From Lineus longissimus (Eukaryota > Nemertea > Pilidiophora > Heteronemertea > Lineidae), in the NCBI RefSeq assembly GCF_910592395.1, contig NC_088313.1, forward strand, positions 21,096,437 through 21,160,436: 64,000 bases of DNA. The letters are read 5' to 3'. The translations under genes were made by a program, and so were the position numbers. How positions within the stretch are numbered: position 1 is the first letter of the stretch; the number at the start of each line of letters is the position of its first letter. Under the pieces are notes generated by a model, which saw only the letters and a program-made list of their open reading frames with translations, searched no databases and was not told the origin of the DNA. Positions 17,320 to 63,850 of this stretch are shown one piece after another.

Positions 17320-20463
<3,144 letters not shown>

Positions 20464-22037: not shown

Positions 22038-25000
22038 TTTCAAACACTTGTGTACGAATTGTACACAATTGTGAAATCTAGTTGTCAAAAGTCGTATTTT
22101 GATGTGCTGTTACAATATAATTGTTAATTTGGCCTTGGCGAAAAAAGACTAAAATTCTTTATATCGAGTTCTTTATTTTTCTATTCTCCTCTCAGAATCG
22201 ATGCAATGCGCAAGTTTGCTGGTACGCAATGAGTCCAGGTTTTGTGAGGCGACAGACCAATGACATCATAAGTTCATTTCATCTTTGGTTGACTGGTTTC
22301 ACGTATACATCTTGCATAGCAGATGTACAGGTGAATCGAGCAACCGAGAAGAAGCGGACGTCAGGAGCACAAATTCGGGGTATTCCCTTGGAAGAGGGTC
22401 AATTTTGGGGTTGGAGGCTCAAATCTGCCTGGCAAAGCACGAAAAGTGGATAATTTGGGGTGCCCTGTTTGGATTCAGTTGTTTTGATTTCTTGGTCTGT
22501 TGGGTCATGATATTTTTTGTGATACTACTGTTATGGTTTCTAACTGAGTTGGAGACTAAGTTGACATAAGTCCAAATCCGCACTCGTTAATTTAATTGGT
22601 GTCACGTGGCCACGGCCGATTGACAGTTGAGCGGACTATGCCGTTGTTTCAACTCCTCTATCAACTCTTTGTACATTCTGTGTATATTTTAAATATTTTA
22701 AGTACATTCGCGAAGCCAAAGGCTACATGTGGAGACTGTAAAGTGTAGTATTTGCTATTAATTTGCAATAAATATTTTTATCAATTAAATGATATCTGCT
22801 TTGGGCATTCTGATAATTTGAGACTGCATCCAGATTTTTCTCTGGATTACTACGTCATAACGCTGCTGTCGACCCTTACCCCTTATACTAGTCTCGAGGA
22901 AGCCAGCCTCTACCCCTTTCACAAGTTTAGAGGAAGCCGACAGATGCAAGGAAAGTCACCATGGATATTTTCTGTTGTGGACACCATCACTTCCCCCAAC
23001 ATCATTCTCAAAAGCTTGGCTATTCGTGACAGTAGGGGTCCCAAATAGTCATGATATGGATGGTGTTCATCCAGACATTTTGGGGCCCGTACAGTCAGGA
23101 TATTGTAAAACTCCGATGCACATACCGTGGTTGGTCTTTTGAGCAACTACAATGGTTCTACCAAACGCTGTGTAATTACTGCGTTGATTTCGAATCTTGA
23201 TGAAATCGCAAGTGGAAGCACTGCAGGTTCCGAGGCACTGGCCAATGTCCGCAGTAATCGTGGCCATTCGAATGAAAGGAGTCGAAATCGTTCCCTCGAT
23301 TTCAGGAAGTCATGTACCGAGAATGAAATCTCGGGCCATTTCTCAAAGAAATCATAAACCCAATTGCCCCTTTGAACACGTAATGATGAACGGAAAAGGA
23401 AAGGGGCTACTCGTAAGTTGCAAAGTTCACCGACAGTGACAAACTTCAAAGGATGCACTAACCACCAAAAGGGTTCCAGAAAGCCTAAACTGAATCTCCA
23501 GCCGATAGCTAGTCTCTCCCTCCATCACCCGAAGGAAGCTACATGTATGCTATTCTTGCCGTGGCTGACCCGCCGTGCCCTCCAACATGGATGAAGCCTT
23601 GCTGGTGCGACTGACCTTCCGTCGCGGATTATGCGGACCGAGCTTATAGCTTTGAAAACAGGGCCTAAAAAATCAAAGACTTGGTCCAGATGGCGATCTT
23701 TTCTTTTTCACTGTTTTCCTTGCTTCGGGTAAGAAATATGCTTCAGAGGCAATCTTTGTTGACCACTGACACCACAAGTGAGACGGGAAGAGAGTCGACC
23801 TGAATACGCAATTTGAGGACATGTATGTTTGCGTCCCCTGCGCAATAAAACCTTGACTGAGCCATTGATATCATGCCGCCATTTTTAATCATACTATTTG
23901 CGTTTTCAAAAATTGATATTTCTTGGAGACATAATAACTGCGGTGCAACAAGATGCATCGTACTTTACGAAATATTAAGAAAACCACATGTATATCTCTT
24001 TGGTTCTGGAATATAGAAACGATAATGCGACGCCATGATGGCGCATAGGCCCCTGTTCACGTTTGGTCAAAGGCCGCCATTTTGATTTTTCATGGCAAAG
24101 CTTTGATTTTTATTTCAAAATATAGTTGTAAATTGTAATCAAAACATAAAATGCACATGTGAGACGCATGTTAATTATTTGTTGACATGATGGTGAATGT
24201 TCCAAGATTGTGCGTGGGGCGGGTGTGGGAGTCCCTATAATAAGATAGCACCACTCTCCGGCACACTGTGGCAATTTATAGTGATTCATCCATCAACATA
24301 CACTATAGAACGTGTACAAATGTACACAACCATCTACTAATGCTACAGATTAACCCCTTACCAAACAAAACACTATTTCGAACGCAGCTCATCCACACTG
24401 CACCTAAGATATTATGATTGGCTGAGATATAGGAATAAACGCACAGGGAACGCCCTGCTGTTCACCAAACGAAAAAAACAACCCAGAGTATCGCATAACC
24501 ACATTCTAATAAAGGCCGTATCAGTAGTATCGACATGATCTAATTGTCTTCCTACCACGGTCTTCACTCATCACTCAAACTATCGAAATCACGGAACCAA
24601 GTACAAATAAAGACGTTTTATTGGTTGAACGTATTCACTGCACTTAAATATACTCTATATTTTCACCGATTTACAATTTCTTCAGCAATAACAATGACAG
24701 CAAGGTGAAATAACAATTGACAGCAAGGTGAAAACCGAGCACTACCTCATGGCTAGGCCATTGGACCATCTGGTGTCGCCAACCTAATGTAGTGTCCATC
24801 CAATGAAACATGTTGTGTCCAGTCAAGCAACCATGCGCATCTAGTAGGACTCGAAGATCCAGAAACGGTATTATAGTGGAGAAACTAGAGTAATTACTGC
24901 GAGGGCCAGGTTAGAAAACCTGTTTTTAACCACCATGTATTTCTCGCACATGTACCGCTCTGACGGAAGGAAGTTGACTTGATTTACCATTGGTCGCATC

Positions 25001-31777: not shown

Positions 31778-32554
31778 TTATGTCACATCCTGGTCACCGT
31801 GTTTTTCCTCAGATAATGCCAGAGGATTTAGAGGAGGTCCCGTGTAGGGATGAGTATCACACCAGAAATCCAAAGGCTGTGGGACTCTCAGGAGCCACGA
31901 GACTGCAGGGACACAGGACTCGGATTGTCCTGTGTCTGATGACTTCGGGGTAACGTCTTTGAAGTAGTGACACACATTTATCTCCGTCGAGTTATAAGGC
32001 GGGGCAAGAATGTCAAGAAATGCTGCCGGCCCATTTATCGCCTGAATTTCATGAAAGTTTTCTTCTATAGGTGAAAGGCAGCAGGCGTCCAGATCTGTTT
32101 CAGCATTGATCCTTGTCACGGGTGTCCGACGGGCGGGCTGAAGATATTTCTTCCAGTTGGTGTATTTCTCTGCCAGTTCCGATGGAATTGCGACATTGTT
32201 CGACACCAATGCAGTGTACCGTTTGACGTCAACTGTCCCGCTGATTATTTTGCACAGCCCATGCATGCCAGGGTGGTCATGCATGGGCAAGGTCACCCCA
32301 TTCTTCAACACAAATACCCCCATAGAAAAACAATCATCCTCCCACAGCCCTATGTACGTGACTGGCGCTTTCCCACCTTCAGGCTTGAATAGCTCATTAC
32401 TTTTTACAAGTTCTTGGTTAAAATCGATATCAGCAGCAGTCACATGTCTAATCATCCGTTTTAGTCGATTGAAATTATCAAGAAACGCCTTGTCAGGTGC
32501 TGATTTGGAGAAAGTTTGATAAGCAAGTCTAGCAACTTTCTGGATGGTCGCCAT
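31778..32554 (-). CDS. ADO: ADO: 2-aminoethanethiol (cysteamine) dioxygenase / N-terminal cysteine dioxygenase
   Basis: Non-haem iron thiol dioxygenase of the PCO/ADO cupin family. It adds O2 to cysteamine (giving hypotaurine) and, in mammals, to N-terminal cysteines of proteins such as RGS4/5, acting as an oxygen sensor feeding the Arg/N-degron pathway. The frame is single-exon, 258 aa from the ATG at 32554 (MATIQK), close to the 270 aa of human ADO; the in-frame extension upstream starts from a non-ATG codon and is left out. Iron ligands are visible: the HDHPGMHG motif (His92, His94) and the third His in FHEIQAINGPAAFLDILAPP (His168). The Cys-His-Tyr trio (Cys195, Tyr197) matches the position of the human Cys-Tyr crosslink. 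It is divergent to BIN3. Confidence 0.95.
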   Translation of the reverse strand: MATIQKVARLAYQTFSKSAPDKAFLDNFNRLKRMIRHVTAADIDFNQELVKSNELFKPEGGKAPVTYIGLWEDDCFSMGVFVLKNGVTLPMHDHPGMHGLCKIISGTVDVKRYTALVSNNVAIPSELAEKYTNWKKYLQPARRTPVTRINAETDLDACCLSPIEENFHEIQAINGPAAFLDILAPPYNSTEINVCHYFKDVTPKSSDTGQSESCVPAVSWLLRVPQPLDFWCDTHPYTGPPLNPLALSEEKHGDQDVT

Positions 32555-32802
32555 CTTGAATGTGACTGAATGAAGACAAGAAATTGCCGATGATAGGAAG
32601 GTTCCTTCTACAACAATGATGAATTGTTTCATGATATATATGAAGAACAATACAAAACTAATCATGTTAGAAAATATCAGTGTGTGATGTGTATACCTAT
32701 TGGTATAAAACAGCCTTCAAGTGAAAAGACACTCTTACCGGCATATACGGAGTATGTAAAGGAGAAACGACGACCACAACACTTAAAGGGACAACAGAGA
32801 AA
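32555..32802. promoter_or_regulatory. Putative bidirectional promoter between ADO and BIN3
   Basis: Only 248 bp separate the ADO ATG (minus strand) from the BIN3 ATG (plus strand), so both transcripts must start in or near this segment unless one has an upstream leader inside its neighbour. It is AT-rich, with no CpG-rich core and no clear TATA box. Confidence 0.55.
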
Positions 32803-35855: not shown

Positions 35856-38789
35856 ATGGCTAAGGAGTGTCCTAAAATCATCATTATTGGTGCCGGTATA
35901 GCCGGGATTTCTGCTGTAGCTGAATTATATAAGCAAGGCTTCACTAATACGGTCATTCTAGAAGCTCAGGACATCATAGGAGGGCGGATACAGACAAGAC
36001 ATTTTGGTAAACTGATTTAGGTCACATACTCACATGGCACATGCCGCAATCAACAATGGCAATATGCCAAGTGCCATCTTAGCGTAACCATTTCGCAAAC
36101 AATTCATCATGCATGAATTGATTTGTATAGGCAAGACAAGTGTCTCAGATATTTTGTCCTTGTGTTAGTAGGGAGGTAGTTGTGACAGTTGTGAGAAATG
36201 AATTTTTACTTTGGGGCCTTTTGCGGGTGGCGGATAAGCTTACTCAATTCAGATTGGCTGTGACCCCCCCCCCCCCCCCCCCCCCGTAAGACCTGAGGCA
36301 AACACTTATTCATCCTTTTTGCCCTTGTAGGCGACAGTCATATTGAACTTGGTGCTCAGTGGATTCATGGCAAAGATGGCAACCCACTGTACAGCTTGGC
36401 ATCACAACACGACCTGATACCGACAGAAAAGTGCCACCGCTACGAAGATCCCAATAAAGAATCCTTCTTCTACTTTCAAAATGGCGAGAAGATAGATTCA
36501 GAAATCTTGACGGATGTCGAACGGTTCTTTACAACTACGAGTTGTCATCTAGACCAGTACTATCGAAACGGCCTCACATGTGAAGACAGCAAATCAGTTG
36601 GCGAGGTCTTCTATAAAGAATTTCAGGAGCACTTGGATAAATCGTCCGAATCCTTAGATGTAAAACGTCAAAAACAAGCTGTGTTTGACTGGTACTGTCG
36701 CGAGGAGTGTGCAGACACTGGTTGTCACTCAATTTACGATGCATCAGTCAATGGCTGGGGATTATTTTACGAATGTGGAGGTCAGATTGAGGTCAATCTC
36801 TCCACAGGTTACCGACCAATTCTAGAATTGATTCTGGCAAAGATCCCAAAGGAAGCCATCCTTCTTAATAAACCAGTCGAACATATCCTATGGCATGAAG
36901 GCGAGACGCCCTGTACAAATGCTTCACAACCAGTCACTCTGCAGTGTAAAGATGGTGGGACATTCAGTGCTGATCATGTCATTGTCACAGCGTCTGCTGG
37001 CTTCCTCAAGCAGAATGCGAACTCGATGTTCCACCCGCCACTGCCAAAGAGAAAAATGGATGCTCTGAAAGGCATTGGTTTTGGCACAGTCGACAAAATC
37101 TTTTTGGAGTTTGAGAAGCCATTTTGGGAGGAGCATTGTGACGGGATGCACTTTGTCTGGTCAGGGGACGAACCATTTCAGCTTGACTGCATAGATGCTG
37201 AACAGGTAGGAGGCATGCACTTGCTTATTGCTTTGTTGTAGTTTTTAGCTCAAACCAATTATGTCCCATTGGACGACTACGACACTCTATTGTGGTGACA
37301 CTTGATGGAGTAAAGTGACCTGTCCCTGTCTTTAGGTAAGGCCGATGGCGTGTCAGTAAGTTACTAAACTGCTGGTTGGCTCAGTTTTAATAAAGCAGTT
37401 TGATGTGTGCTGAGTCACATAAAAACTTGCCTTAAACCTTTCCTCTTCGCTCAAATAATTCAATAATTCTTTTGCATTTGGTGATTTCAGGATGTTGACA
37501 GGGAGTGGTACAAGAGCCTCCTTGGGTTTCAGACCGTTACTAACCACCCAAATATCCTCCTTGGGTGGATTGCTGGAACAGCAGCGAGACAGATGGAATC
37601 TTGCTCAGATGATATGGTGCTAAAAGTTTCGATGGCGGTGCTGAGACGATTCACTGGAAACCCAGATATCCCGCAACCAGTGAAGTTCTTCCGGTAGGTT
37701 CTTTCTCTTGGCTAGTTAGAAAACCGAAAAATGTCTTGGAAAATAGTTTTGAAATAGTCATTTCATCAGTTGAGGGTCTGTCCAAAGACAAGGGCTGGGT
37801 GGAAAATTGTCCCAAAGGTGGCTTTGTACATGTTTTAATGTCAGTTTCATGCTTGTATATTTCAGGACCAATTGGCATAGTAACCCTTACGTCTGTGGGT
37901 CTTACAGCTACCTCAGTGTCGCCGGCCACACAACTGATTTTGCAACGTTAGCTGAACCTCTGCCAAGTAAACAGGTGAGAAAAACTTTAGTGCCCATTCC
38001 TCAAAGTTTGGAAAGAGGCTTAAAATGTAGTATTCATAAATTGTGGACCAAAATCTGCATACGAAATGGGTGTCCTGCTGAGCCAACAGCGCTGTTATTA
38101 AATTCCAGACAAAAGGATTAAGCATGTGTTCATGTTGTATTACATGTAGATTGATTACATGGCCTCAAAGGAAACCATCTGTCATATCTCGCCTGATGTG
38201 CTTGATACATGTGCATCTGCTACCGTATATGCCAATCCCTATGGCCTTTATGTTGCCGAAAGTTTGAGGCTCGTGGATAGGTGATTCAGATGCTGCCAGT
38301 TGGTATTGAGCCGCCAGCTAGTTTAACATACGTGTATGATTACAAGTTTACAATTTTCAGTTGTTACTGATGCATTAGTAGGATTGTATAATACATTAAA
38401 GTAGGACAGCTGCTGTCACATATATCACATGGATCCTCTCACCAATTTTACATCCTGTCTCATGTTGGCTGTGGCCCCATTTTCATTGTAGCTATCAAAA
38501 AGTTATCAGCTTCAAATTGTGGATCATTTGACTAAACAGGTCCATCGGTATTAATCAACCCTCCATGACATCAAATAACAACCTTTGATCTGTTCTCTAG
38601 AATCCCCAGGTTTTGTTTGCGGGCGAGGCAACAAGCAGTCATCATTTCTCAACAACTCACGGCGCTTACAGCTCAGGCGTGAGAGCAGCTCACTCGATCA
38701 TCCAGATCTACAACAAGGACCATACGCATGATCTCCCAACCCCGTCCCCCTGGCAATATGAGCAGAGAGTTATGACCCGCCGTCAATAA
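35856..38789 (+). CDS. PAOX/SMOX-like: FAD-dependent polyamine oxidase (spermine oxidase / N1-acetylpolyamine oxidase family)
   Basis: Flavin amine oxidase of polyamine catabolism, oxidising spermine or N1-acetylated polyamines to shorter polyamines, an aminoaldehyde and H2O2. Exons 35856-36006, 36331-37205, 37491-37693, 37866-37974 and 38601-38789 join in frame to 508 aa. Visible motifs: N-terminal Rossmann GAGIAG (Gly12-Gly17), ILEAQDIIGGR FAD-ribose region, GAQWIHG (His63), the conserved active-site lysine in TVDKIFLEF (Lys306), NWHSNPYVCGSYSY, and the C-terminal FAD block LFAGEAT-SSHHFSTTHGAYSSG. The start at 35856 (MAKECPK) is the first ATG; an upstream in-frame stretch begins from a non-ATG codon. 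The C-terminus ends TRRQ, with no PTS1-like SKL/PRL signal, arguing for a cytosolic or nuclear spermine-oxidase-like enzyme rather than a peroxisomal one. AATAAA at 39351-39356 fits the transcript end. Confidence 0.94.
36264..36285. repeat. Poly-C tract of 22 bases
   Basis: An uninterrupted run of 22 cytosines in intron 1 of the polyamine oxidase gene, 45 bp before the exon 2 acceptor. Such runs are prone to length error in sequencing and assembly. Confidence 0.95.
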
Positions 38790-47000: not shown

Positions 47001-50000
47001 CAACATGATTCATGACTGATTGGTAAATAAACCCAAAATGCTTATCGTCTGAATGATGTTTTCAACTTACCACCGCCACGGCCGATGAGGAGAGAATCTC
47101 TTCAGGAGACACTGTGGTGAAGTAGGCGACATTGGCGAGGACATACGTGAGCATCACCAAGATACACGAGATCCAGATAGCTTTGGGAAGGTTCCTGAAA
47201 CACAAACACATAGGAATAGAGGTTAGACTCTCATCAGAGGACACTGTGGTGAAGTACACAGAGTAAGATGACACTATCAAGGAAAGCTTTTCTGGCCAAA
47301 AACAGGCCCTGTTAGGGTTGTCACTCAGTACCTGTGCTTGGGACTTGTTCTCATCCCCGAGAAGCAGAGTAGACCTGCAATACTTCTCTTACCATAACAT
47401 GTTCATATTAAAGTATTTGTAAGAAAACAACAAAATTCTGTTATGAAGAAATGCCATTGCCAGTGATCAATATTTCGACTTCAAAGCATTTCAATTTGCT
47501 CTAGAGATTACTTTTAGCCTTGGTGTACCGGTAATGTATCGTCTGGTGTGCATTTCTATAACCAGGAGGGAAAGATGTCATCAAAATGAGCCGATTTCGA
47601 GGGATGTTTTGATATCACCAAGGGCACTAGCTTCGCAATCCCAGACATAGGTTTTTTAAGGTAATCATGGAATGTCTGAGCTGATGCAATGGTTCAACTC
47701 CCTAAAATTGGCAAGCAGTCAATGCACTGAAGGAATCCCATTTCATTCTATGCATGAATGGAAGTCATTTGAAATGTAGGGTGACTTATGAATTAATCAT
47801 GGAGTAATATTTTTACCATTTACTACATAGTTTAAATGCAGTTATTCCAGCTTAATAACAATGCGGTCTCACAGGGTTGGCCGACATTGTACTGAACTCC
47901 AGGAGGTCAGCTGAGCCATTGCCACAAGACATTGTTAGCTTAAGACACACTCATACTTGAAACATACCAATTACCATGAAATAACATGAATACTTGTGAA
48001 AAGCAAATAAGCTCAGATCAGGAAGAGATTCATATCAGCCAGTTTTGTTGTGAAACTTATACATGTATGCCCTACTAAATCAGAAGTATTTGTTCATGGA
48101 GATGGTGGAGCTGTGGTGTTCACTAGGTCTGTTCTTGGTTTATCACGAGCTAGGTCAAGACTGCGAGCGTTATTACCAACTCAATTTCTGATCATGATGA
48201 TGGCAACCCTGGAACTGTCTCACTCCCATGCCTTACAGCTGTGTCAACTGCAGCAGTCTAATGATCTAGTATTCATGCATGGCTCTGCACCTAATGATTC
48301 AGTTTTATCATGTCTGACAGTGGATGACAGCTTGGCCAAGCTGTGTAAACAATGAATAATTCAGGTGAAAAAGACAACACAGAATATACAGCCTTTGTAA
48401 AATCTAGTTGTGGAGATCCCATTAGCCAAGTTGACATTGTAAAAGGGCAAATGTCCATCTCAGACATCATTCGACAGATGAGAACATTGGTACTCCACTA
48501 ATTGCACTTGAAATGTAGGTTGATTGGCTTTTCAAACACTCAATCACTTTCCATTACTGATCAATACAAGTCACTGTACCAGTAATCAGCTGACCAACAA
48601 TGCCTTGAGTAAGTATGCATGTACCATACTTAACACGTCATACACCATGTTTCAAACCAATTGTGGACAACCTTGTGGCTATTGTGACCTTGGGACAGAT
48701 TTTATGGACACATTGTTTTCAATAATGCACTTTACACCACTGCACTTGTCTTGAATAATCAAGTCTGGGTTACTTTTTTTCACCCTTTGACTTTCACTTG
48801 AACTTCCTACTTAAGAGTTTCTATCAACTCAACACAAAGTGTAACAATTTTGGACTTGCATCATCATTGGTCCAAGGCTCTACAAGTGATCAATATTTAA
48901 GAGGTACCAATACCCCATTATCCTGAATTTCCAACTGCTTCTCTCTCAAGAGGAACAATTATGAGTCCTTCCCCTCGGTGGGACACTCTCATTATCTACA
49001 GTTATATAAAGGCCTGGCTTTAAGCTGTCATCAAAACTGAATGACCATGATACAACATCCCCTTTATATTCTTCAACTGCAATTTACGGCTCTAGGAAAA
49101 TTCGTCCCCGGATAATTCGTCCCCGGAAAACTCGTCCCCGGAAAATTCGTCCCCGAGAAAATTTGTCCCTGGAAAATTCGTCCCCGAGGAAAATTCGTCC
49201 CCAGATAATTCGTCCCCGTGGATAATTCGTCCCTGGAAAATTCGTCCCTGAGGAAAATTCGTCCCCGGAATATACGTCCCCGAGGATAATTCGTCCCCGG
49301 AAAATTTAACAAAAGTTGAAAGTTTCCGACATTACTTTCTAGTAATAACTACTACCTACTCCTTTCGACTTTTCTCATTCAGTGTTATATCTCTATTTAC
49401 TACCCTACTAGCTAGTTACCTACTCCACCTTTTTTCATAGTAGGTAGAGGTAGGCAGGCAAAATAAATTTTTTTTTCTTCAAATAAGTATTTTTACTGGT
49501 CAGAATGAAAGAAAAGCTCTAAATTCTTCCATAAAATATTTTGCCTGCCTACCCTACCTACTATAAAAATAGTGGGGTAGGCAACTAGCTAGTAGGGTAG
49601 TAAAGAGAGATATTACACTGAATGAGAAAAATCGAAAGTAGTAGTTATTACTACAGTCCATTCGACAAGACTTAAGGGTCTTAGAAAGTAAAGTCAGAAA
49701 CTTTTAACTTTGTAAAATTTTCTGGGGACGAATTATTTTCGGGGACAAATTTTCCTAGGGGACGAATTATCCAGGGACGAATTTTCCTTGGGGACGAATT
49801 ATCCGGGGACGAATTATCCGGGGACGAATTTTCCTAGGGGACGAATTATCCTCGGGGACGAATTATCCGGGGACGAATTTGCGGGGACGAATTTTCCGGG
49901 GACGAATTATCCGGGGACGAATTTTCCTGTAACCGCAATTTACACACTGATCAATCACCAATATCTTTGGTTATTCCAGACTGTGTGTCTACATTACGCT

Positions 50001-53000: not shown

Positions 53001-56000
53001 ATTCAATCTACCTGGTATAATTTCAAAGGTTTTACACAATGCAGCATTCCAGTATGATATGAGTGATGTTGCTTGTCAATACTTTCTACTTTAGGCCATT
53101 TTGAACGTGCAGTACCACAGGTTTAGAACTTCATACAACCAAAATGTCATTCAATGATTTTATTCCAATTTATGACTCTTAAGTTGGAGAAGATCAATAA
53201 CAGAACATACTTCATTTCAGAATGACAACATGTTCTTGCAGCTGCTGAATTTACAATGCATGTATGATATTTCTCCCATTCCTCATACATGTAAACCGGT
53301 ACATCACACATCCTATCAAACCTCATGAAATACAGTCAACTGAACTGACGACCAAGCTATGGCGTGTGGGGATCACACAACCTCAAAACGTTCTTTACTA
53401 AATGAAGGAGAGCCCCCCCCCCCCCGACCGGCCAGCGATTCATACTTACTAATACAAACAACGGTCAGTAACACCACTGCACTGTCTGGCTGGGCACAGC
53501 CTGGAAACAATGGCTCGATAACGTAGTACGCAAACGTCAGCGCCACGATTGCCTGTGAACATGGGCGTACAATCATACACTCCACCCAAAGTCTTAGAAA
53601 AGCCAAGAAGGGTCCGAAGGCTTCCAAAATGTATGCGTAATCTGCCCCCGATCGTGTGATGCTGGTACCAAGTTCAGCGTAACAATACGCTCCGACCATG
53701 GAGAAGAGTCCACATAAGATCCACACAACTAGTGAGAAGCCAACACTGCCGGAATGAAGGAGAACTCCTTTCGGGCTTACAAAGATACCCGATCCAATTA
53801 TACTGCCAACAATCACTGTGACTCCATTTAGTAGTGAGATTTTGGGCTTCAAATTGACCGTTTCCGAGTAGACTGATGTGTTGCTCTCAATGAGACCACT
53901 CTCATCTTGACCTGGCACCTTCAGGTGCCGTCCATTGCTCGGGTTCACCCCGTTCTGGTCGATTTTCGAGTACTCTTTTGAGGGAGATTTTGAGGGAGAC
54001 TTATTGGCAGCCATTTTCAATCTGATGAAATACCCTGTCTGTCGAATTGACCCTAGTTACAGTTTTTGGATCACAGAAAAGTCGCTGAATACAGTAACTT
54101 CAATAAGAAATCGACAGTTCTAACTGATCACAACCTATTCAACTATCTTCTGGCACCTTTTGATTCGAAATATTCGACCACGATTTAGAGAAAAGCCGGG
54201 AAATTTGTTATCGTTGTTTACGATCCACGTGTGCAATGTACTGTATGGGGGATTCCAAGCACCTGCGCAATGACGTCACTTGGAGTTTCCTAGAATTTAG
54301 TTTCACGTAGTTTCAAGCTGGCCAATCCGGGTTGGCCCTTTTGGCGCGAAATGTTCATCAAACTCGCCCCAGTGCCGAAATTTAAAAAGCGTTGTAAGGA
54401 ACGAAATCAGCGCCTCTAGTGTCAAGATTGGCCCATTATATAGCCCATCCTGAGGAAATCAGGGGTTAATGTTCGCTTCTCCGGCGGAGAATGTATATAT
54501 CCTCAGGATGAGCCTCGGTCCGCTATGCTGTGGGGACGAAGTCTTAGTCCCCAAACGGATGCGTTGCGGATCGAGGCTAATGGGCTAACAAATTGGCCTG
54601 AATGAAAACGTGCTTTACTACAAAGCGGAAGTGATAGTAAATCATTTCCCGGGAACATTTCACCAGTGAGGTAATAACTTCCTGATTCCGCATTCAGCTA
54701 GCGTGAAGGAAATATATTCCTCGTTAGAATCAAATAGTCAAACCCATTAATTTCTCTCAAGGTATAAGTATAACAGATAAGGCAAGATTTTCTTTTCTGT
54801 ATCCATATTTCATTTCGAAATAAGACAAGATTCAGCTAGACTCCCGGGGCAGTCCATTGCAGTCCAGTGGGTCGGACCCGTCCCTCCCCCAGATTGGCCC
54901 GGCTGCCTCGGTAGTCCACTAACGAAGAGGCGTGGCACCGTCCGTACAAATACAGAACGCCCATGATGTCGTATCCTGAACTTCGGGAGCATCTTTTACC
55001 CTCAATCAGATTTTAAACATCCGTGCACTGGCGCGCCGTCTGCCGAAAACTGGAGAAACGACAATGGAACAACCGACAAGACGACTGAAGTGGAATGGTT
55101 GGACTGCCGTGTGTGTAGACTCTTTCAGTCTCTTCCATACAGAGACTGGTACTTGACGGCATTTCACTCGCCATAAACTAGATTAGGGGGCGTCCCATTC
55201 CGGTGTCCGGTCACGAGTTTCTAACAAAGATGGGCAACCTCGAGTGAAGGAATACCAGAGCGCTCGGTATTAATAGTACATTCGCTGTATGCACGGCTCG
55301 CCTCGGGTAAACCAATGAGGCCTTCTCGACCCTCACCTGCGCGGCGGATAGGGTCGAGGTTACCTGGACTAAATGCCATGCGACAGATGGCACCAGTGCG
55401 CCGAGCAGCATCACATTAGAGAGGTTTCGATAATGCACATTATGAAGTTTGCGGACCGCGATCTTGGCCTAGACCATTGGTTTCTTCAGCCATAAGTACA
55501 CACTCCTGACCATCATTGAATAGTCGGGGGGCGGGTCACAATTCTCCCGTAATAATGTATTATAACTGGCTATTTATTGTTTGGTTGTGCCAGTAAAGAC
55601 CAATTTGATCTCCAAGGATGTTCTCCCGTTGTCCTTAACAGAGTCTACTTACCAATGCAGACCGCAGCCAGCAAAACAACAGCTTCATCTGGTGGTTCAC
55701 AGCTCGGGAAGACAGGTTGCACAACATAGTAGGCAAAGACAAGCGCGACGATGGTGGTGGTACAAGGACGGATGATGAGACACTCGATCCAGATCCGCAG
55801 GAAAGCGACAAAAGGTCCGAATGCCTCGAGGATGTAGGAGTAGTCTGCTCCAGACTTGGGAATCATGAGGCCCAGCTCGGCGTAACACCAGGCTCCCATC
55901 ATTGAAAACAAACCACAGATAATCCATATTATGAGTGACAGTCCCACACTACCCGTGTGCATGAGCACACCCTTCGGGCTCACAAATATCCCTGATCCTA

Positions 56001-57801
56001 TGATGCTGCCGACGATTATCGTAATACCACTTACTAAATTCACATTCTGTTCGAGTTTGACTTTGATGGATCGGGAGGAGCCCATTCCACTCTGTGTGGC
56101 TGATCCCAAATCGTCCCTCGAGGGGACTGGACTCTCCCCCGTATTCGCTCTCTCATATGCCGCCATGTTGCACAAATCCGACTCAAACTGAACAGGTGTG
56201 CTATCCCTTCTCCATATTCATATGTAGGCATGTGCAATGTTCAAAAGCATGACAGTGGATCAGTGGGCGGTCAAACTCTGTTACGCCAAAGTAGTGGTCA
56301 GATTAGATACTATTCATTGCTTGATATGTCCGAGAGACACTCTAACCTGATTCCGAACAATGATATGATAAATCAATCTTATCGGGCAGAGCACTATCGC
56401 AATGAATTGGGCTTTCAGCTGGGACAAGTATAAACTTAGGGTAGAGCCTTTATTCCTCATACTTTTTTGGGCTCTGTGGTACTTTTTGTCTCAATTGACT
56501 ATGCCCTAAAACATGGTTTATTATCAATGACACTAGCGCAGCTCATACCATAGCTGGGACAATAATGTGTACCTAGAACAAATGATCATGATACGTGGAC
56601 CATTACCAAACTCAAATGTCCTTGTGTCCTACGCAGTCATATACCAACCTACCCTCCCCATTAGATCCCCTGCAGTGTAAAATTGATACAACAGGTAGCA
56701 GCACAGACGTTTGGCCAGCAAAAGGGCTTGCCAGGGATTTGAACCCGGGTCCTCTTACATCCAACGCAAGAATCGTACCACTAGACCAACGTGTCGTTCT
56801 ATCAGCAAGGTTCGTTACTGGTGCATTAATACAACAAGTGGCAGCACAGACGCCGGACATGTTTGTCAGCCCTGAGTTAGCGAGCGGATATAATTTTTTT
56901 CTGAATGGTGAATTGTCCTATATTGACAGAGACACAAAACGCCACCTTAAAGAGAGACTAACACGGATCGTATCATATCGAGAGGTCGTCACTGCACGTT
57001 ATCCAACATTCACCGAAAAAATCTCACCCCATCATCATCAGGCCGTCGGCCGATGCTGACGGCCCAAGCGGGTACGATGCTGTAGAGGCCCAAGACCGCG
57101 TTCAATACCTCAGAGATGAGAAACACATAACCGAATCCTTTGGCCCCCGGGAGACTCTCTTCTAATTGGGCATATTTTCCCACCACATCGGCATATTGGA
57201 CGCTCGTCGGAGCCATTGACGACGCTCCTGTTGGAAGTCTCAAAACAAAAAGATACTTACTGATACATATTCCCGCCAAAATGACCACTGTTTCAGTGGG
57301 TGGGTCACAATCTGGGAAGACAGGCTGCAGGACGTAGAAGGCGAACGCCAGGGCAACAATTGCAGTGGTCCCCGGTCGTAAGATCAGACACTCCACCCAG
57401 AGGCGGAGGAACGCCAACAGTGGTCCAAACGCTTCCAAGATGTACGAATAGTCGGCTCCCGATTTCGGGATGATGAGTCCAAGCTCCGCGAAACACCAGG
57501 CTCCACACAGCGAAAACAAACCACACGCGAGCCAGATGATCAAAGAAGCGCCTACACTTCCCGAGTGCTGGAGGACACCTTTTGGACTCACGAAGATTCC
57601 CGAACCGATGATACTTCCCACGATCATGGTGATGCCATTCAGCAAAGTCATGTTGGTCTGGAGACCGACTCCATCATGCCGTTTGGTAGCAGACGGATCG
57701 GCAGTGACATCACTGATGTGCCCGTTTGAATCGTAGCGCTTCCGGCGACCATCAGTGGATTGGTCCATTTTGGTCAAGCTGATGGTGTCACCTTCGATCA
57801 T
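44034..57801 (-). CDS. SLC7A5-like: SLC7 LAT-type amino-acid transporter with three alternative first coding exons
   Basis: Light-chain subunit of a heterodimeric amino-acid exchanger (APC superfamily, LeuT fold, 12 TM), which pairs through a disulphide with an SLC3 heavy chain at the plasma membrane. Shared exons in order of transcription: 52919-52794, 50445-50346, 50085-50041, 47194-47071, 46404-46301, 45431-45185, 44916-44832, 44511-44419 and 44098-44034, all GT-AG and in frame. They encode mid-TM4 to the C-terminus: [31 protein letters not shown] (TM6, Trp-Asn substrate-site pair), FGGVNGILF (TM8), [24 protein letters not shown] (TM10) and the LAT1-like tail [16 protein letters not shown]. 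Upstream are three homologous first exons (57801-57261, 56166-55653, 54014-53450), each ending at the same codon in phase 1, giving 509-, 500- and 517-aa proteins. TM6 Trp-Asn and the tail favour the SLC7A5/A8 branch, though the TM4-5 wording resembles y+LAT. Confidence 0.93.
47216..47265 (-). repeat. Fragment of the adjacent SLC7 exon duplicated in the intron
   Basis: The word GACACTGTGGTGAAGTA occurs in the exon (about 47108) and again in the upstream intron (about 47240). Read on the minus strand, the intron copy encodes [11 protein letters not shown] beside the true exon's [11 protein letters not shown]. It has no matching splice sites of its own, so it appears to be a small exon-derived duplication. 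Confidence 0.6.
49079..49943. mobile_element. Foldback-type transposon with repeat-built inverted arms and 9-bp target duplication
   Basis: The element spans 49088-49934 (847 bp) and is flanked by the 9-bp direct repeat GCAATTTAC (49079-49087 and 49935-49943). Its ends match in inverted orientation: GGCTCTAGGAAAATTCGTCC on the left and, on the reverse strand, GGTTACAGGAAAATTCGTCC on the right. The outer part of each arm is a tandem array of a 13-15-bp unit (AATTCGTCCCCGG, inverted on the right as CCGGGGACGAATT). The inner arms continue as an imperfect palindrome (CTACCCTACTAGCTAGTT against AACTAGCTAGTAGGGTAG) around a short loop. No transposase is encoded. Repeat-built arms and a 9-bp duplication are features of Foldback/MULE-related elements, so it is a non-autonomous member. 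It lies in an SLC7 intron between the exons at 50041 and 47194. Confidence 0.85.
53413..53425. repeat. Poly-C tract next to a splice donor
   Basis: Thirteen cytosines on the plus strand (G run in the transcript) starting 20 bp inside the intron after variable exon A. G-runs near donors can act as intronic splicing enhancers; this role is inference. Confidence 0.8.
53450..54014 (-). CDS. SLC7 variable first exon A (proximal)
   Basis: Encodes residues 1-188 plus one base: a Ser/Lys-rich cytoplasmic N-terminus ([11 protein letters not shown]), TM1 with [11 protein letters not shown]2, TM3 and the first half of TM4. The start is the ATG at 54014 in good context (AAAATGG). It contains the heavy-chain disulphide cysteine in LFPGC between TM3 and TM4, and [10 protein letters not shown] after TM3. 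The exon ends ...VCI in phase 1 before GTAAGT and joins the shared exon at 52919 to read VCI-T-ILTFINC. It is the nearest of the three to the shared exons and the most different from the other two (for example GTSITRSG against GLxIPKSG). A CRE (TGACGTCA, 54271-54278) lies 257 bp upstream. Confidence 0.93.
54271..54278. promoter_or_regulatory. CRE upstream of SLC7 exon A
   Basis: Perfect TGACGTCA preceded by a GCGCA motif, 257 bp upstream of the exon A start codon on the minus strand. The position fits a private promoter for exon A. Confidence 0.45.
54441..54587. repeat. Nested-palindrome (cloverleaf-like) element upstream of SLC7 exon A
   Basis: An outer pair TAGCCCAT (54441-54448) / ATGGGCTA (54580-54587) encloses two stems. 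Stem 1 is CATCCTGAGGA (54446-54456) with TCCTCAGGATG (54500-54510), itself enclosing TTCTCCG-G-CGGAGAA (54477-54491). Stem 2 is AGCCTCGGTCCGC (54511-54523) with GCGGATCGAGGCT (54566-54578, one mismatch), enclosing TGGGGAC ... GTCCCCA (54531-54553). Together they form a two-lobed fold covering the whole 147 bp. It may be a MITE-like repeat or a regulatory structure. Confidence 0.7.
55653..56166 (-). CDS. SLC7 variable first exon B (middle)
   Basis: Encodes residues 1-171 plus one base: N-terminus [21 protein letters not shown]1 [11 protein letters not shown]2, TM3, the extracellular cysteine in VFPSC and half of TM4. The start is the ATG at 56166 (ACATGGC context); the codons just upstream open from a TTG. 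The donor is GTAAGT after VCI + G, the same codon and phase as exons A and C, so splicing to 52919 gives VCI-A-ILTF and a 500-aa transporter. TM3 reads [19 protein letters not shown]. It is about three quarters identical to exon C by eye over the TM1-TM4 region. A pyrimidine stretch with AG upstream that would make this an internal exon is not obvious, so a private promoter is the simplest model. Confidence 0.92.
56684..56851 (-). repeat. tRNA-Pro-derived element (tRNA pseudogene or SINE) between SLC7 exons B and C
   Basis: On the minus strand a tRNA-like body lies at about 56727-56796: box A TGGTCTAGTGG, an anticodon stem CTTGC/GTAAG around a loop with anticodon TGG (proline), and box B GGTTCAAATCC. 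Both RNA polymerase III boxes match consensus, but the acceptor stem does not pair and the T stem has a mismatch, so it is not a functional tRNA. A 25-bp imperfect direct repeat flanks it (TACAACAGGTAGCAGCACAG near 56687 and TACAACAAGTGGCAGCACAG near 56830), suggesting a SINE or insertion-associated duplication. Confidence 0.65.
57261..57801 (-). CDS. SLC7 variable first exon C (distal)
   Basis: Encodes residues 1-180 plus one base: N-terminus [20 protein letters not shown]1 [11 protein letters not shown]2, TM3, the disulphide cysteine in VFPDC and half of TM4. The first ATG is at 57801; a second in-frame ATG at 57768 (MDQST) has a stronger AAAATGG context and could be used instead. The GTAAGT donor follows ICI + A, identical in phase to exons A and B, giving a 509-aa protein with the shared exons. 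After TM3 it reads [10 protein letters not shown], so the residue after Pro is Gly where A and B have Cys. The frame is intact, with no stops or indels, arguing against a decayed copy. Confidence 0.92.
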
Positions 57802-61248: not shown

Positions 61249-63850
61249 TTAAAGGTAAGCACTTGCAATGACGCGTCCATTGCCACGGACGTGATCGCCG
61301 TAGCTTGGAAGCTCATGGCGGCAGACCGGGAGTCCTCGGGTGGTGTCACCATAGGTATTCCCAAAGACAAAGCGACGTTCTGAAAAATATAACAACGAGA
61401 TAGTGAGGTGAAGATGATGACAACAGGGAATCATACTTTCATGATAATCAACAGCATTGGGCATATCATCATTATCATAATGGCTTCCTCATAAATCTCC
61501 TTCGTATTATTCAAAAGTGTTTTTCGATTAAAAGTTGCCGACTATCTGAATGAAAGCCTGTGTAAGGTAAAGAGGCATGTAAGGTGGGCGATGACACGAT
61601 TGTAAGGTAAGGACCAATCAATAACATGACTGGGAGATAACACCTGCTACTGATAAACTGTCAAATGGGCCATCCGATAAGTTTGTCTTGCAAAAATGTT
61701 TCACAGATGTTACGCAGATGTTGTATGTTTCTTTTGGCCAGAGCTGTAGGTGACACGAGAGCATTTTGCGACACAACTTCACTACACTTCGATCAAGAAC
61801 TGAAACCAATCGCCCGATGAATGGGACACATGTCTTCCCTAACTAATCACATTATGTCACCGACAGTGAATTAATTGCAATCAACCATACCCGGCTAAAT
61901 CAAGTTCATTAATGATTGTAAGATTTCTAGTCATGCACGGCTTTGTGGCGGTTGTTGCGATGACAATCAGTTCAGACATTTTTGGACGGAAATCTGGAGC
62001 CACATGCAATATAAGTCCATAATGAGAGTTTTAACTGCCATTCTATCATCCCCGCTTCAAAAAGAAACAGAATTGAGAGCTAGTTTTGTATTGTTGGCCA
62101 TCGGGCTTTAACCTTTTTAATAAAGTGCTTTGCAAACTGGGATTTTCATGGCAAAAGTTCAAAGATTGTTCCTGAAAGCCAGCCCCTTTGCCAACCCCTA
62201 TATGTCAGATTCATAATGTCAGGATTAGAATCGGCAGACCACATCTCCTCATACACTTCATTAATGAAGCATTACGCAGAATGAAAGCTATGGGATTATC
62301 TTGTTAATTCTACAAAAGTTTCTGTGTGGTTCTTACATACAATACATTGTGCATGGGAAGGATTAAATAATTACTTATGGCATTAATGGGTGATTAATTA
62401 TTGACAATAAATTTCTAACCGAGAGCTCCTGTAGCCTATGACAGCTCATGATCACATTTAACACTGACACATCACTTAAAGGGAGACTATAGGCGAATGA
62501 ATTGGGGGAAAGACCCCAGCTGGGCAGGGCCTGTGTCATCGTCAAGGAGAAGAAGCATTGATTGAGCCAATACGAAGCATAGTGCAAGTCACAGGTTAAC
62601 CAGAGATTGAAGAAAACTGTAAACTTGGAAATATGCGTGACCATTCTGATCACGGTTTTGCGAAGATGTCACTTTTGCATACTTTTAATGTAGCGTTTTG
62701 ACAAGGTTAACCTGTGACAAGACAAAGCATACAGTTTGCCTACACTGCTAGCTAGTGCTGCTAGTATACAACAGGTAAACCTTACCTCTACAGAAAATGA
62801 CATTATTATAGAACACTTTACTCGCACAGAGGTTGTTGGTCAAGTTCTTCTATAATAAAGAAACCAATGGCCAACTATTAGCTTATTGGCAGAGGGCTAA
62901 AGAGGCAGCCTGGCGGTGGGTAAAGCTGGAAACTTAGCAAATCTAGTCCCCCACATCCCACAATCACTCAGCGTCTAGTCCCCCACATCCCACAATCACT
63001 CAGCGTCTAGTCCCCCACATCCCACAATCACTCAGTGTCTAGTCCCCCACATCCCACAATCACTCAGCATCTAGTCCCCCACATCCCACAATCACTCAGC
63101 GTCTAGTCCCCCACATCCCACAATCACTCAGCGTCTAGTCCCCCACATCCCACAATCACTCAGCGTCTAGTCCCCCACATCCCACAATCACTCAGCATCT
63201 AGTCCCCCACATCCCACAATCACTCAGCGTCTAGTCCCCCACATCCCACAATCACTCAGCGTCTAGTCCCCCACATCCCACAATCACTCAGCGTCTAGTC
63301 CCCCACATCCCACAATCACTCAGCGAGCCAATGGACAGACTCGAAAACCACATTCAGGAGGGAATGTAAACCAATTAATTATGGCACCACTTGGTTTGTG
63401 GGAGGGTAATATAGTGTATACAGTTAGAGCACACGTGCAGGTGTCTTGTCAAGTAAGATAATTAGCTCACTGATTAGTAGTTGTATTACGGATTTATTGA
63501 GTGGATATTTCTCATTGAACTCAATCTTTACCTCCAGGAGAGACCATTCAGCACACAACTTTACAAGGGAAGCTGGTTTTCTACCTTACAGTTTTTACAA
63601 AGAGCATGACCTGATCCAAAGTTGACATAACCAGTGACAGAGCCTTGGCATTGAGAAGCCAGCCTGGGAGACCATGAGTCAAATTATCACTCGGAAAACG
63701 TATCAAACTATGGAAAACACAAACAATGGAACAAGCTAGATTGAAGTATGAAACTTACGTGGAAGATATCCAGTGTATTTGGGGATCATACCATCGTTCT
63801 GGTAGAGTCGTCGACTGTTGTCACCTTCGAATGCTGCACTGTCGGGATAG
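61249..63850 (-). CDS. CIMIP2/FAM166-like (UPF0605) ciliary microtubule inner protein, 3' part only
   Basis: Two exons are visible, 63850-63759 and 61379-61249, joined in phase 1 (donor GTAAGT, acceptor TTTTTCAG) and ending in TAA. The join reads DGMIPKYTGYLPQ-RRFVFGNTYG-DTTRG, the (I/V)PxYTGxxPxxxxxFGxTYG signature of the FAM166/CIMIP2 (formerly UPF0605) family, whose members bind inside doublet microtubules of motile cilia and sperm flagella. About 73 aa are seen; family proteins are usually near 280 aa and contain this motif more than once. The N-terminal exons must therefore lie beyond the right edge of the window, and this is probably the C-terminal repeat. The intron carries a 32-bp satellite. 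An alternative downstream splice before the TAA is possible but has a weak donor. Confidence 0.75.
62943..63325. repeat. Minisatellite, 32-bp unit, about 12 copies
   Basis: Tandem units CTAGTCCCCCACATCCCACA plus ATCACTCAGCGT, period 32 bp, almost identical over 380 bp; only the last two bases vary (GT, or AT in a few copies). High homogeneity implies recent expansion or conversion. It lies in an intron of the CIMIP2-like gene. There are no spacers between units, so it is not a CRISPR array. Confidence 0.95.

Follow-up and report, generated by a model that had tools for sequence, protein, structure and literature searches.

Results

Exon anatomy of the SLC7 gene

The stretch of DNA analyzed here (the window) is 64 kb long and corresponds to C6:21096437-21160436 in an assembly of 391118348 bases in 30 contigs. 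On its minus strand, from 57801 to 44034, lies an SLC7 gene in which the first coding exons A, B, and C are followed by nine shared exons (Table 1). All shared exons are bounded by canonical dinucleotides (AG acceptors, 9/9; GT internal donors, 8/8). When spliced to the acceptor before 52919, A, B, and C give open reading frames of 509, 500, and 517 aa, respectively, without internal stops, and an in-frame stop lies upstream of each ATG, with 8 (A), 17 (B), and 14 (C) codons in between. Using tblastn on the whole window, we identified three copies of the first exon and one set of body exons; up to an E value of 1, the only further matches were a short one at 24241 (E 0.29) and one at 47256 that overlaps shared exon 5 (E 0.13). 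The first-pass annotation had described three intact homologous ATG exons ending in phase 1 with a GTAAGT donor, full-length frames of 509, 500, and 517 aa through 52919, and upstream copies without downstream exons of their own. The coordinates, donors, and stop-free joins confirm the first two descriptions, and the single body set in the 64 kb confirms the third.

Table 1. First coding exons and shared exons of the two SLC7 arrays. Window features are numbered from the first letter of the window; C9 features are numbered along contig C9.
Feature	Coordinates	Strand	Description
First coding exon A, alternative	57801-57261	-	541 nt, ATG, TM1 to start of TM4, phase 1, donor GTAAGT; Pfam AA_permease_2 E 2.4e-18
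First coding exon B, alternative	56166-55653	-	514 nt, ATG, phase 1, donor GTAAGT; Pfam AA_permease_2 E 5.2e-20
First coding exon C, conserved type	54014-53450	-	565 nt, ATG, phase 1, donor GTAAGT; Pfam AA_permease_2 E 6.4e-14
Shared exon 2	52919-52794	-	Acceptor open to all three first exons
Shared exon 3	50445-50346	-	
Shared exon 4	50085-50041	-	
Shared exon 5	47194-47071	-	
Shared exon 6	46404-46301	-	
Shared exon 7	45431-45185	-	
Shared exon 8	44916-44832	-	
Shared exon 9	44511-44419	-	
Shared exon 10	44098-44034	-	Holds the stop codon
C9 first exon 1	ATG 813437, end 812909		Isoform 508 aa
C9 first exon 2	ATG 810406, end 809965		Isoform 479 aa
C9 first exon 3	ATG 808282, end 807856		Isoform 474 aa
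C9 first exon 4	ATG 806492, end 806063		Isoform 475 aa
C9 first exon 5	ATG 805459, end 805027		Isoform 476 aa

Among solved structures, isoform A has full-length homology to LAT1 (6jmq, E 1.5e-162) and y+LAT2 (9ky5, E 4.8e-155), and its best solved relatives are consensus xCT, LAT1, LAT2, and y+LAT. A, B, and C all retain the GSG motif of TM1 and a cysteine at LAT1 position 164, which we take to be the heavy-chain disulphide cysteine. Judged from its sequence, the locus is one SLC7 gene of the LAT type, encoding the light chain of a heteromeric amino-acid transporter, and its alternative first coding exons are arranged in tandem.

The window also holds a C2H2 zinc-finger gene at 18985-20460 on the plus strand, EGR-like by eye, and a PCO_ADO gene (2-aminoethanethiol dioxygenase-like) at 31781-32716 on the minus strand. 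Human EGR2 and ADO are neighbours, and the pair in the window may represent old synteny with them. An exon of a polyamine or acetylspermine oxidase relative lies at 36297-37238 on the plus strand (Pfam Amino_oxidase; best PDB match 5lae, E 4.4e-46). The intron between shared exons 4 and 5 contains two 15/32-base minisatellites (GGAAAATTCGTCCCC and its reverse complement) at 49094-49306 and 49716-49927, about 400 bases apart, and at 62942-63325 a 32-base unit is repeated 12 times in tandem with 98% matches.

Age and constraint of the three first exons

Over 128 core codons, A, B, and C are pairwise 70-77% identical at the amino acid level, with identities of 0.87-0.91 at second and 0.30-0.37 at third codon positions; by the NG86 method on the same codons, dN is 0.159-0.211, while dS is saturated and not computable. 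Because third positions are near random while dN is low, we conclude that the three exons are old and protein-constrained. Comparing the flanks of different first exons by blastn gave no match with an E value below 0.1; since the flanks cannot be aligned, a recent duplication and an assembly repeat are both excluded. The first-pass annotation had suggested dN/dS per exon as a check and had named an assembly artefact among the findings that would overturn its reading. Run here between pairs of exons, the check points to constraint on all three, and the artefact is excluded by the unalignable flanks and the saturated third positions.

We also scored codon usage, each exon being scored by a model trained without it. 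A, B, and C scored 0.34, 0.31, and 0.20, respectively, and the best of 266 other open frames (at least 60 codons, no overlap with the exons of the gene) scored 0.18; the model was trained on the remaining exons of this gene and therefore favours membrane proteins. A reading of A, B, and C as pseudogenes or artefacts was considered and is ruled out by the maintained frame, the donors, the saturated third positions, and the divergent flanks.

Two further stretches were noted near exons A and B. An open frame runs on from exon A through its donor (57258-57012, minus strand) with a codon score of 0.218, above all 266 other frames, and, by eye, an acceptor-like tract ends near 57213; this frame matches no Pfam family and nothing in the PDB at an E value below 0.48, and its best match among the SLC7 proteins compared has E 1.1. 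In the interval that separates exon A from exon B, at about 56793-56715 on the minus strand, a stretch resembles A and B boxes, presumably those of a tRNA-derived element; ARAGORN tRNA and Rfam scans of the window returned no hits.

A second array elsewhere in the Lineus longissimus genome

Searching the genome with the Pfam family gave 21 matches (23 of 59 candidates scored), and searching with exon C gave 26 matches (32 of 32 scored). The latter comprise the three exons in the window on C6, five at C9:805-813 kb, one each at C11:15.285, C9:2.082, C9:16.049, and C4:20.940 Mb, ten in loci whose N part is split (C11:3.79, C11:1.36, C11:17.50, and C2:26.77 Mb), three at C12, which we read as CAT-like by length, and a weak one at C17. 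By tblastn in 20 kb around each, the four single light-chain loci have one first exon, the same junction, and then body exons.

The five matches on C9 belong to a second SLC7 light-chain gene, outside the window, at C9:798106-813437, with five tandem first coding exons (Table 1) and one shared body. All five end in phase 1 with the donor GTGAGT or GTAAGT and have an in-frame stop 9-24 nt before the ATG. The body consists of nine exons from 804464 to the stop at 798106, with the same junction as in the window gene; it was modeled by spliced alignment to the body of the window gene, and its 3' half is least sure. Using tblastn, we found a single body set within C9:786000-835999 and no further first exons in that interval or from the window up to C6:21189999. 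The closest solved structures to the C9 isoform tested are light chains, and GSG and a cysteine at LAT1 position 164 are present in 5/5 exons of this array; the single locus at C9:2.08 Mb, one of the four, has Tyr at 164. Pairwise, the five exons have identities of 41-73%, third-position identities of 0.27-0.54, and dN of 0.16-0.58.

Tree building grouped all five C9 exons in a single clade (95/83) that excludes A, B, and C. Based on this separation, the most likely history is an independent expansion of each array, at an old exon boundary common to the two paralogous genes.

Two further loci show copies, or possible copies, of internal exons. An SLC7 light-chain gene on C9 has two near-alike internal exon copies at 16046218-16046108 and 16045448-16045350 (RVFHTGAIEGHLPSIMAMINYKWLTPAPAVIVL / RVFYCGAKEGHLPSIMAMINYKWLTPAPSVIVL), which are candidates for mutually exclusive splicing. 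At C11:1356424-1357632, two matches overlap within the N region (100-188 and 105-178) and may come from an internal exon that was duplicated in a further SLC7 gene.

The same layout in other animals

Protein searches yielded 220 proteins together, taken as the best 120 of 3974, 3699, and 344 hits. The database is clustered at 90%, so that isoforms have possibly been merged and rarity of pairs is no evidence of absence. Two gastropods have annotated isoforms X1/X2 with 329/329 identical body residues and different N parts, namely Haliotis asinina (P0010/P0013; N parts 82% identical over 130 residues) and Gigantopelta aegis (P0025/P0024; 78% over 130). Both pairs turn identical at or just before the codon split by the junction of the window gene. 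A search for proteins of 400-560 aa from the same species with an identical body and a different N part found no further pairs among the matches listed, though many names end in isoform X.

Of 26 long models, 2 have two N domains and a single body: P0005 of the mite Blomia tropicalis and P0007, which from its MAKER id with the tag Tk is probably from the copepod Tigriopus. A gene finder that ran two tandem first exons together would produce double-headed models of this kind; P0007 is untidy because exon 2 and part of a later exon are also repeated. The rest are P0188, with one N part, and 23 models in which two or three N parts accompany two complete or incomplete bodies (from Trichinella, Haemonchus, Trichostrongylus, Styela, two fish, and others), which are joined neighbouring genes.

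From a relative, the 2095-base contig P0004 contains a 517-aa frame in which a C-type N part (94% identity) is joined to the shared body (95%); being without introns, it is cDNA-like. P0006, isoform X2 of Tubulanus polymorphus, is 80% identical to the shared part of the window gene; P0004 and P0006 are its closest proteins among the matches listed. The comparison with related species that had been proposed earlier thus yields same-junction annotated isoform pairs in two gastropods and the C-type join in P0004.

Origin of the alternative exons

Exon C has identities of 94% over its core to P0004, 73-88% to the named spiralian proteins, and 70-78% to the named arthropod proteins. A and B are near 70% identical to nearly everything compared, and among the matches listed, which come from searches other than one with the region of A itself, neither has an orthologue above 75% outside the L. 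longissimus genome. Trees place A and B next to each other as sister exons with long branches. They are joined by the N part of Tubulanus X2 with moderate support in three trees (91/90, 81/90, and 82/87), and this grouping is not resolved in the fourth tree, the one that includes the C9 exons.

We used AU tests on groups that were named after seeing the trees, with one column dropped, meant as 144 although the exact column is uncertain. All seven alternates as one clade gave p 0.020, so that one ancient origin of all alternates is weakly rejected. A single origin within spiralians is not rejected (five spiralian alternates, p 0.168), and the two arthropod alternates gave p 0.276. In a separate set of tests, the values were p 0.444 for A, B, C, and P0004 as one clade, p 0.55 with Tubulanus X2 added, p 0.029 for Haliotis X1, H. 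rufescens, and Haliotis X2, and p 0.314 for Gigantopelta X1 and X2. Haliotis X2 with Gigantopelta X2 gave p 0.28.

Pocket residues in the exchanged part

Excerpts of three papers on LAT1 (PMC12444478, PMC11828871, and PMC7653941) describe TM1 residues 62-67 as holding the substrate backbone and TM3 residues Ile140, Ser144, Ile147, and Val148 as lining the pocket. In these excerpts, Ser144 corresponds to Asn134 in LAT2 and is one of four named pocket differences; according to one of the papers, it takes no part in binding in the LAT1-Trp complex, and according to another, S144N alone abolished Leu transport. The named TM1 and TM3 pocket positions fall in the variable exon, and Phe252, Gly255, Tyr259, Ser338, and Phe400 fall in the shared body. 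The earlier suggestion that the variable part holds the substrate-contact region agrees with these positions and with the difference between the exons at pocket residue 144.

At position 144, C has Ser, and A and B have Thr. The alternates of the other lineages have Thr (Haliotis X2, Gigantopelta X2, and the second N part, N2, of P0007) or Asn (N2 of Blomia), the partner exon having Ser each time. In 5/5 lineages, the conserved first exon thus has Ser and the alternates have Thr or Asn; Tubulanus X2 also has Thr. Ser occupies this position in 95% of 190 other homologues. Position 144 is non-Ser in 14 of 194 scored homologues (11 Thr, 2 Ala, and 1 Met); of these 14, four Thr proteins are alternates or Tubulanus. 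A column scan found no other equally conserved column that switches in all five lineages; column 91 differs in 5/5, yet is only 29% conserved, and position 62, also one of the four named differences, changes from Ser to Cys in 3/5 lineages and is unchanged in the window.

Position 144 had been noticed before the column scan. If the five lineages are treated as independent, a switch in every one of them at any column of equal conservation has a chance of 5e-5; reweighted, this chance is 0 to 0.00115 under three weightings and 0.042 with uniform weights. For three lineages, the chance is 0.007-0.12 weighted and 0.46 and 0.70 uniform, and for two lineages, the switch is not significant (0.17 or more). 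The five switches may not be five separate events, as the Haliotis and Gigantopelta alternates may share an origin, and the improbability of the pattern depends on the separateness of the events and on the weighting.

Within the window, five columns with at least the conservation of 144 (144 included) carry a change in A as well as in B, namely 118, 140, 144, 151, and 175. Positions 140, 144, and 151 are otherwise 95-100% conserved, and their spacing would place them on one face of TM3.

We also compared mean pairwise differences in TM3 segment 132-148. The value is 0.10 among 11 conserved-type orthologues across phyla, where this is the least variable segment, and 0.33, i.e., three times as high, in the window array. 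It is 0.76 in the C9 array and 0.70 among the four single-locus paralogues together with exon C, and in both sets it is the most variable segment; the C9 array therefore diverges where paralogous transporters diverge. The segment was chosen after seeing the five C9 exons; a sliding window of 17 columns peaks at 131 in the C9 array and at 132 in the paralogues. In the window trio, this segment is not enriched in differences (8/17 versus 39/113, p 0.42), and segment 161-175 is more variable (0.40).

These data bear on whether the array could be real but purely regulatory, the isoforms having the same substrates and different sites of production. The lack of TM3 enrichment in the window trio is in agreement with this, as is the location of pocket residues in the shared body. 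Against it stand the changes in both A and B at the conserved positions 140, 144, and 151, the switch at 144 in 5/5 lineages, and the TM3 divergence of the C9 array. We consider a purely regulatory role somewhat unlikely, though more probable than the alternatives considered below.

How a first exon may be selected

Within 120 nt upstream of A, B, and C, the AGs with a pyrimidine at -3 have at most 8 pyrimidines among the preceding 14 positions, compared with 9-13 of 14 in 15/15 acceptors of the two gene models (nine in the window and six of the nine at C9). An exon that opens a transcript can do without an acceptor and donate straight to the acceptor before 52919. Transcription would most likely begin at, or shortly upstream of, A, B, or C, the donor of that exon would join the acceptor before 52919, and any first exon in between would be removed as intron. 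A promoter motif common to the regions upstream of A, B, and C was sought, and none was found. The products are predicted to share TM4-TM12, the GSG substrate clasp of TM1, and the cysteine at LAT1 position 164, and to differ in the N-terminus, in TM1-TM3, and in the TM3 wall of the pocket. The likely outcome would be light chains that differ in substrate choice and expression from one locus.

We hold it highly probable that the gene has alternative N-terminal exons, each of which is joined to the shared body. We are less sure that the choice among them is made by promoters and that selectivity is altered; expression of the A, B, and C isoforms in L. longissimus and one promoter per exon are what the exon structure suggests.

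Selection could alternatively be by splicing, with A, B, and C as internal mutually exclusive exons behind a common non-coding first exon and one promoter, an arrangement that leaves the joining of alternative N-terminal exons to the shared body untouched. Several SLC genes use mutually exclusive exons, as described in excerpts of PMC5740500 and PMC9741552. A pyrimidine-rich CAG lies 435 nt upstream of the ATG of C, and in the C9 array an acceptor-like site precedes the ATG of first exon 1 by 18 nt and that of first exon 3 by 17 nt, so an upstream non-coding exon is possible before some first exons. However, the 120 nt before A, B, and C contain no acceptor as good as the 15 compared, and we regard choice by splicing behind one promoter as unlikely.

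It is much less probable that A and B are relics of whole-gene duplicates that lost their 3' exons and that only C is used. This would fit with C being of the conserved type and with the longer branches of A and B, but A and B keep the frame, the donor, GSG, and Cys164 despite saturated third positions, the 64 kb window contains no leftover body exons, and the layout recurs elsewhere. Separate transcription units with first exons trans-spliced to the body, although compatible with the sequence, have nothing specific in their favour and are hardly credible, since first exons and body follow one another in the right order on the same strand, span about 14 kb, and have ordinary donors, so that cis-splicing suffices.

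In excerpts of PMC1885805, UGT1 clusters are described as using cis-splicing, with the other first exons removed as intron. The UGT1-like reading given in the first-pass annotation is supported by the intact constrained exons, the lack of other 3' exons in the window, the same-junction pairs in gastropods, and the second array of five exons; in that reading, each first exon would have a promoter of its own.

Discussion

We propose, with confidence evenly divided for and against, that first-exon arrays of protostome SLC7 light-chain genes are interchangeable selectivity cassettes, in which TM1-TM3 modules set the TM3 wall on a fixed TM4-TM12 body that carries the other gates and pocket residues. 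The scheme would have arisen more than once, including at least twice in the L. longissimus genome, where the same intron of two paralogous genes would have been used. Within the LAT-like gene, Ser at 144 would belong to one module and Thr or Asn to the others, so that one locus would be the equivalent of the vertebrate LAT1 and LAT2 genes. If this is correct, part of the diversity of invertebrate amino-acid transport is hidden inside single genes, and annotation misses such isoforms or mis-joins them into double-headed models. The natural swaps of TM1-TM3 on a constant body would then offer a clean system for the study of substrate choice in LeuT-fold transporters, the Ser144 question of LAT1 and LAT2 would be directly testable with natural pairs from several animals, and a transporter family would be added to the UGT1-like loci.

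Among the best-matching open-licence papers, we found no SLC7 gene with tandem first coding exons, in agreement with the earlier statement that no described gene of this kind was known. In that literature, the nearest described neighbours are UGT1 and GCNT2 by layout and SLC7A2, with CAT-2A/CAT-2B, by family. According to excerpts of PMC1885805, vertebrate UGT1 and GCNT2 have multiple variable first exons in clusters that are called vertebrate-specific. As in the window gene, homologous first coding exons lie in tandem, share a frame, and are followed by one constant 3' exon set, and the variable part of UGT1 holds the substrate-binding side. They differ in being vertebrate genes for enzymes, whereas the window gene encodes an invertebrate 12-TM transporter and has fewer exons; one promoter per first exon, known from UGT1, is a prediction for the window gene.

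Within the SLC7 family, excerpts of PMC12839458 and PMC7584565 describe alternative exons with a measured change in affinity for CAT-2A/CAT-2B and an alternative exon 6a/6b for zebrafish slc7a1a. Those genes share with the window gene the family and the use of alternative exons. In contrast, the swap there is internal and in the CAT branch (42 residues in the TM8-TM9 region for CAT-2A/2B), while the window gene swaps the first exon of a light chain, covering TM1-TM3. SLC12A1, SLC25A3, and SLC39A14 are likewise solute carriers with exon swaps, but they are from other families and use mutually exclusive exons rather than alternative first coding exons (excerpts of PMC9741552 and PMC5740500). Drosophila minidiscs, a LAT1-like light chain with several 5' ends, has three predicted transcripts that differ only in their 5' UTRs and encode the same protein (excerpt of PMC11352668), unlike the window first exons, which encode different N parts.

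Human LAT1 and LAT2 (SLC7A5 and SLC7A8) are among the best solved relatives of the window gene; GSG and the cysteine are kept, and residue 144 is Ser in LAT1 and Asn134 in LAT2. In humans, LAT1 and LAT2 are two genes, whereas the window gene varies residue 144 through alternative first exons of one gene.
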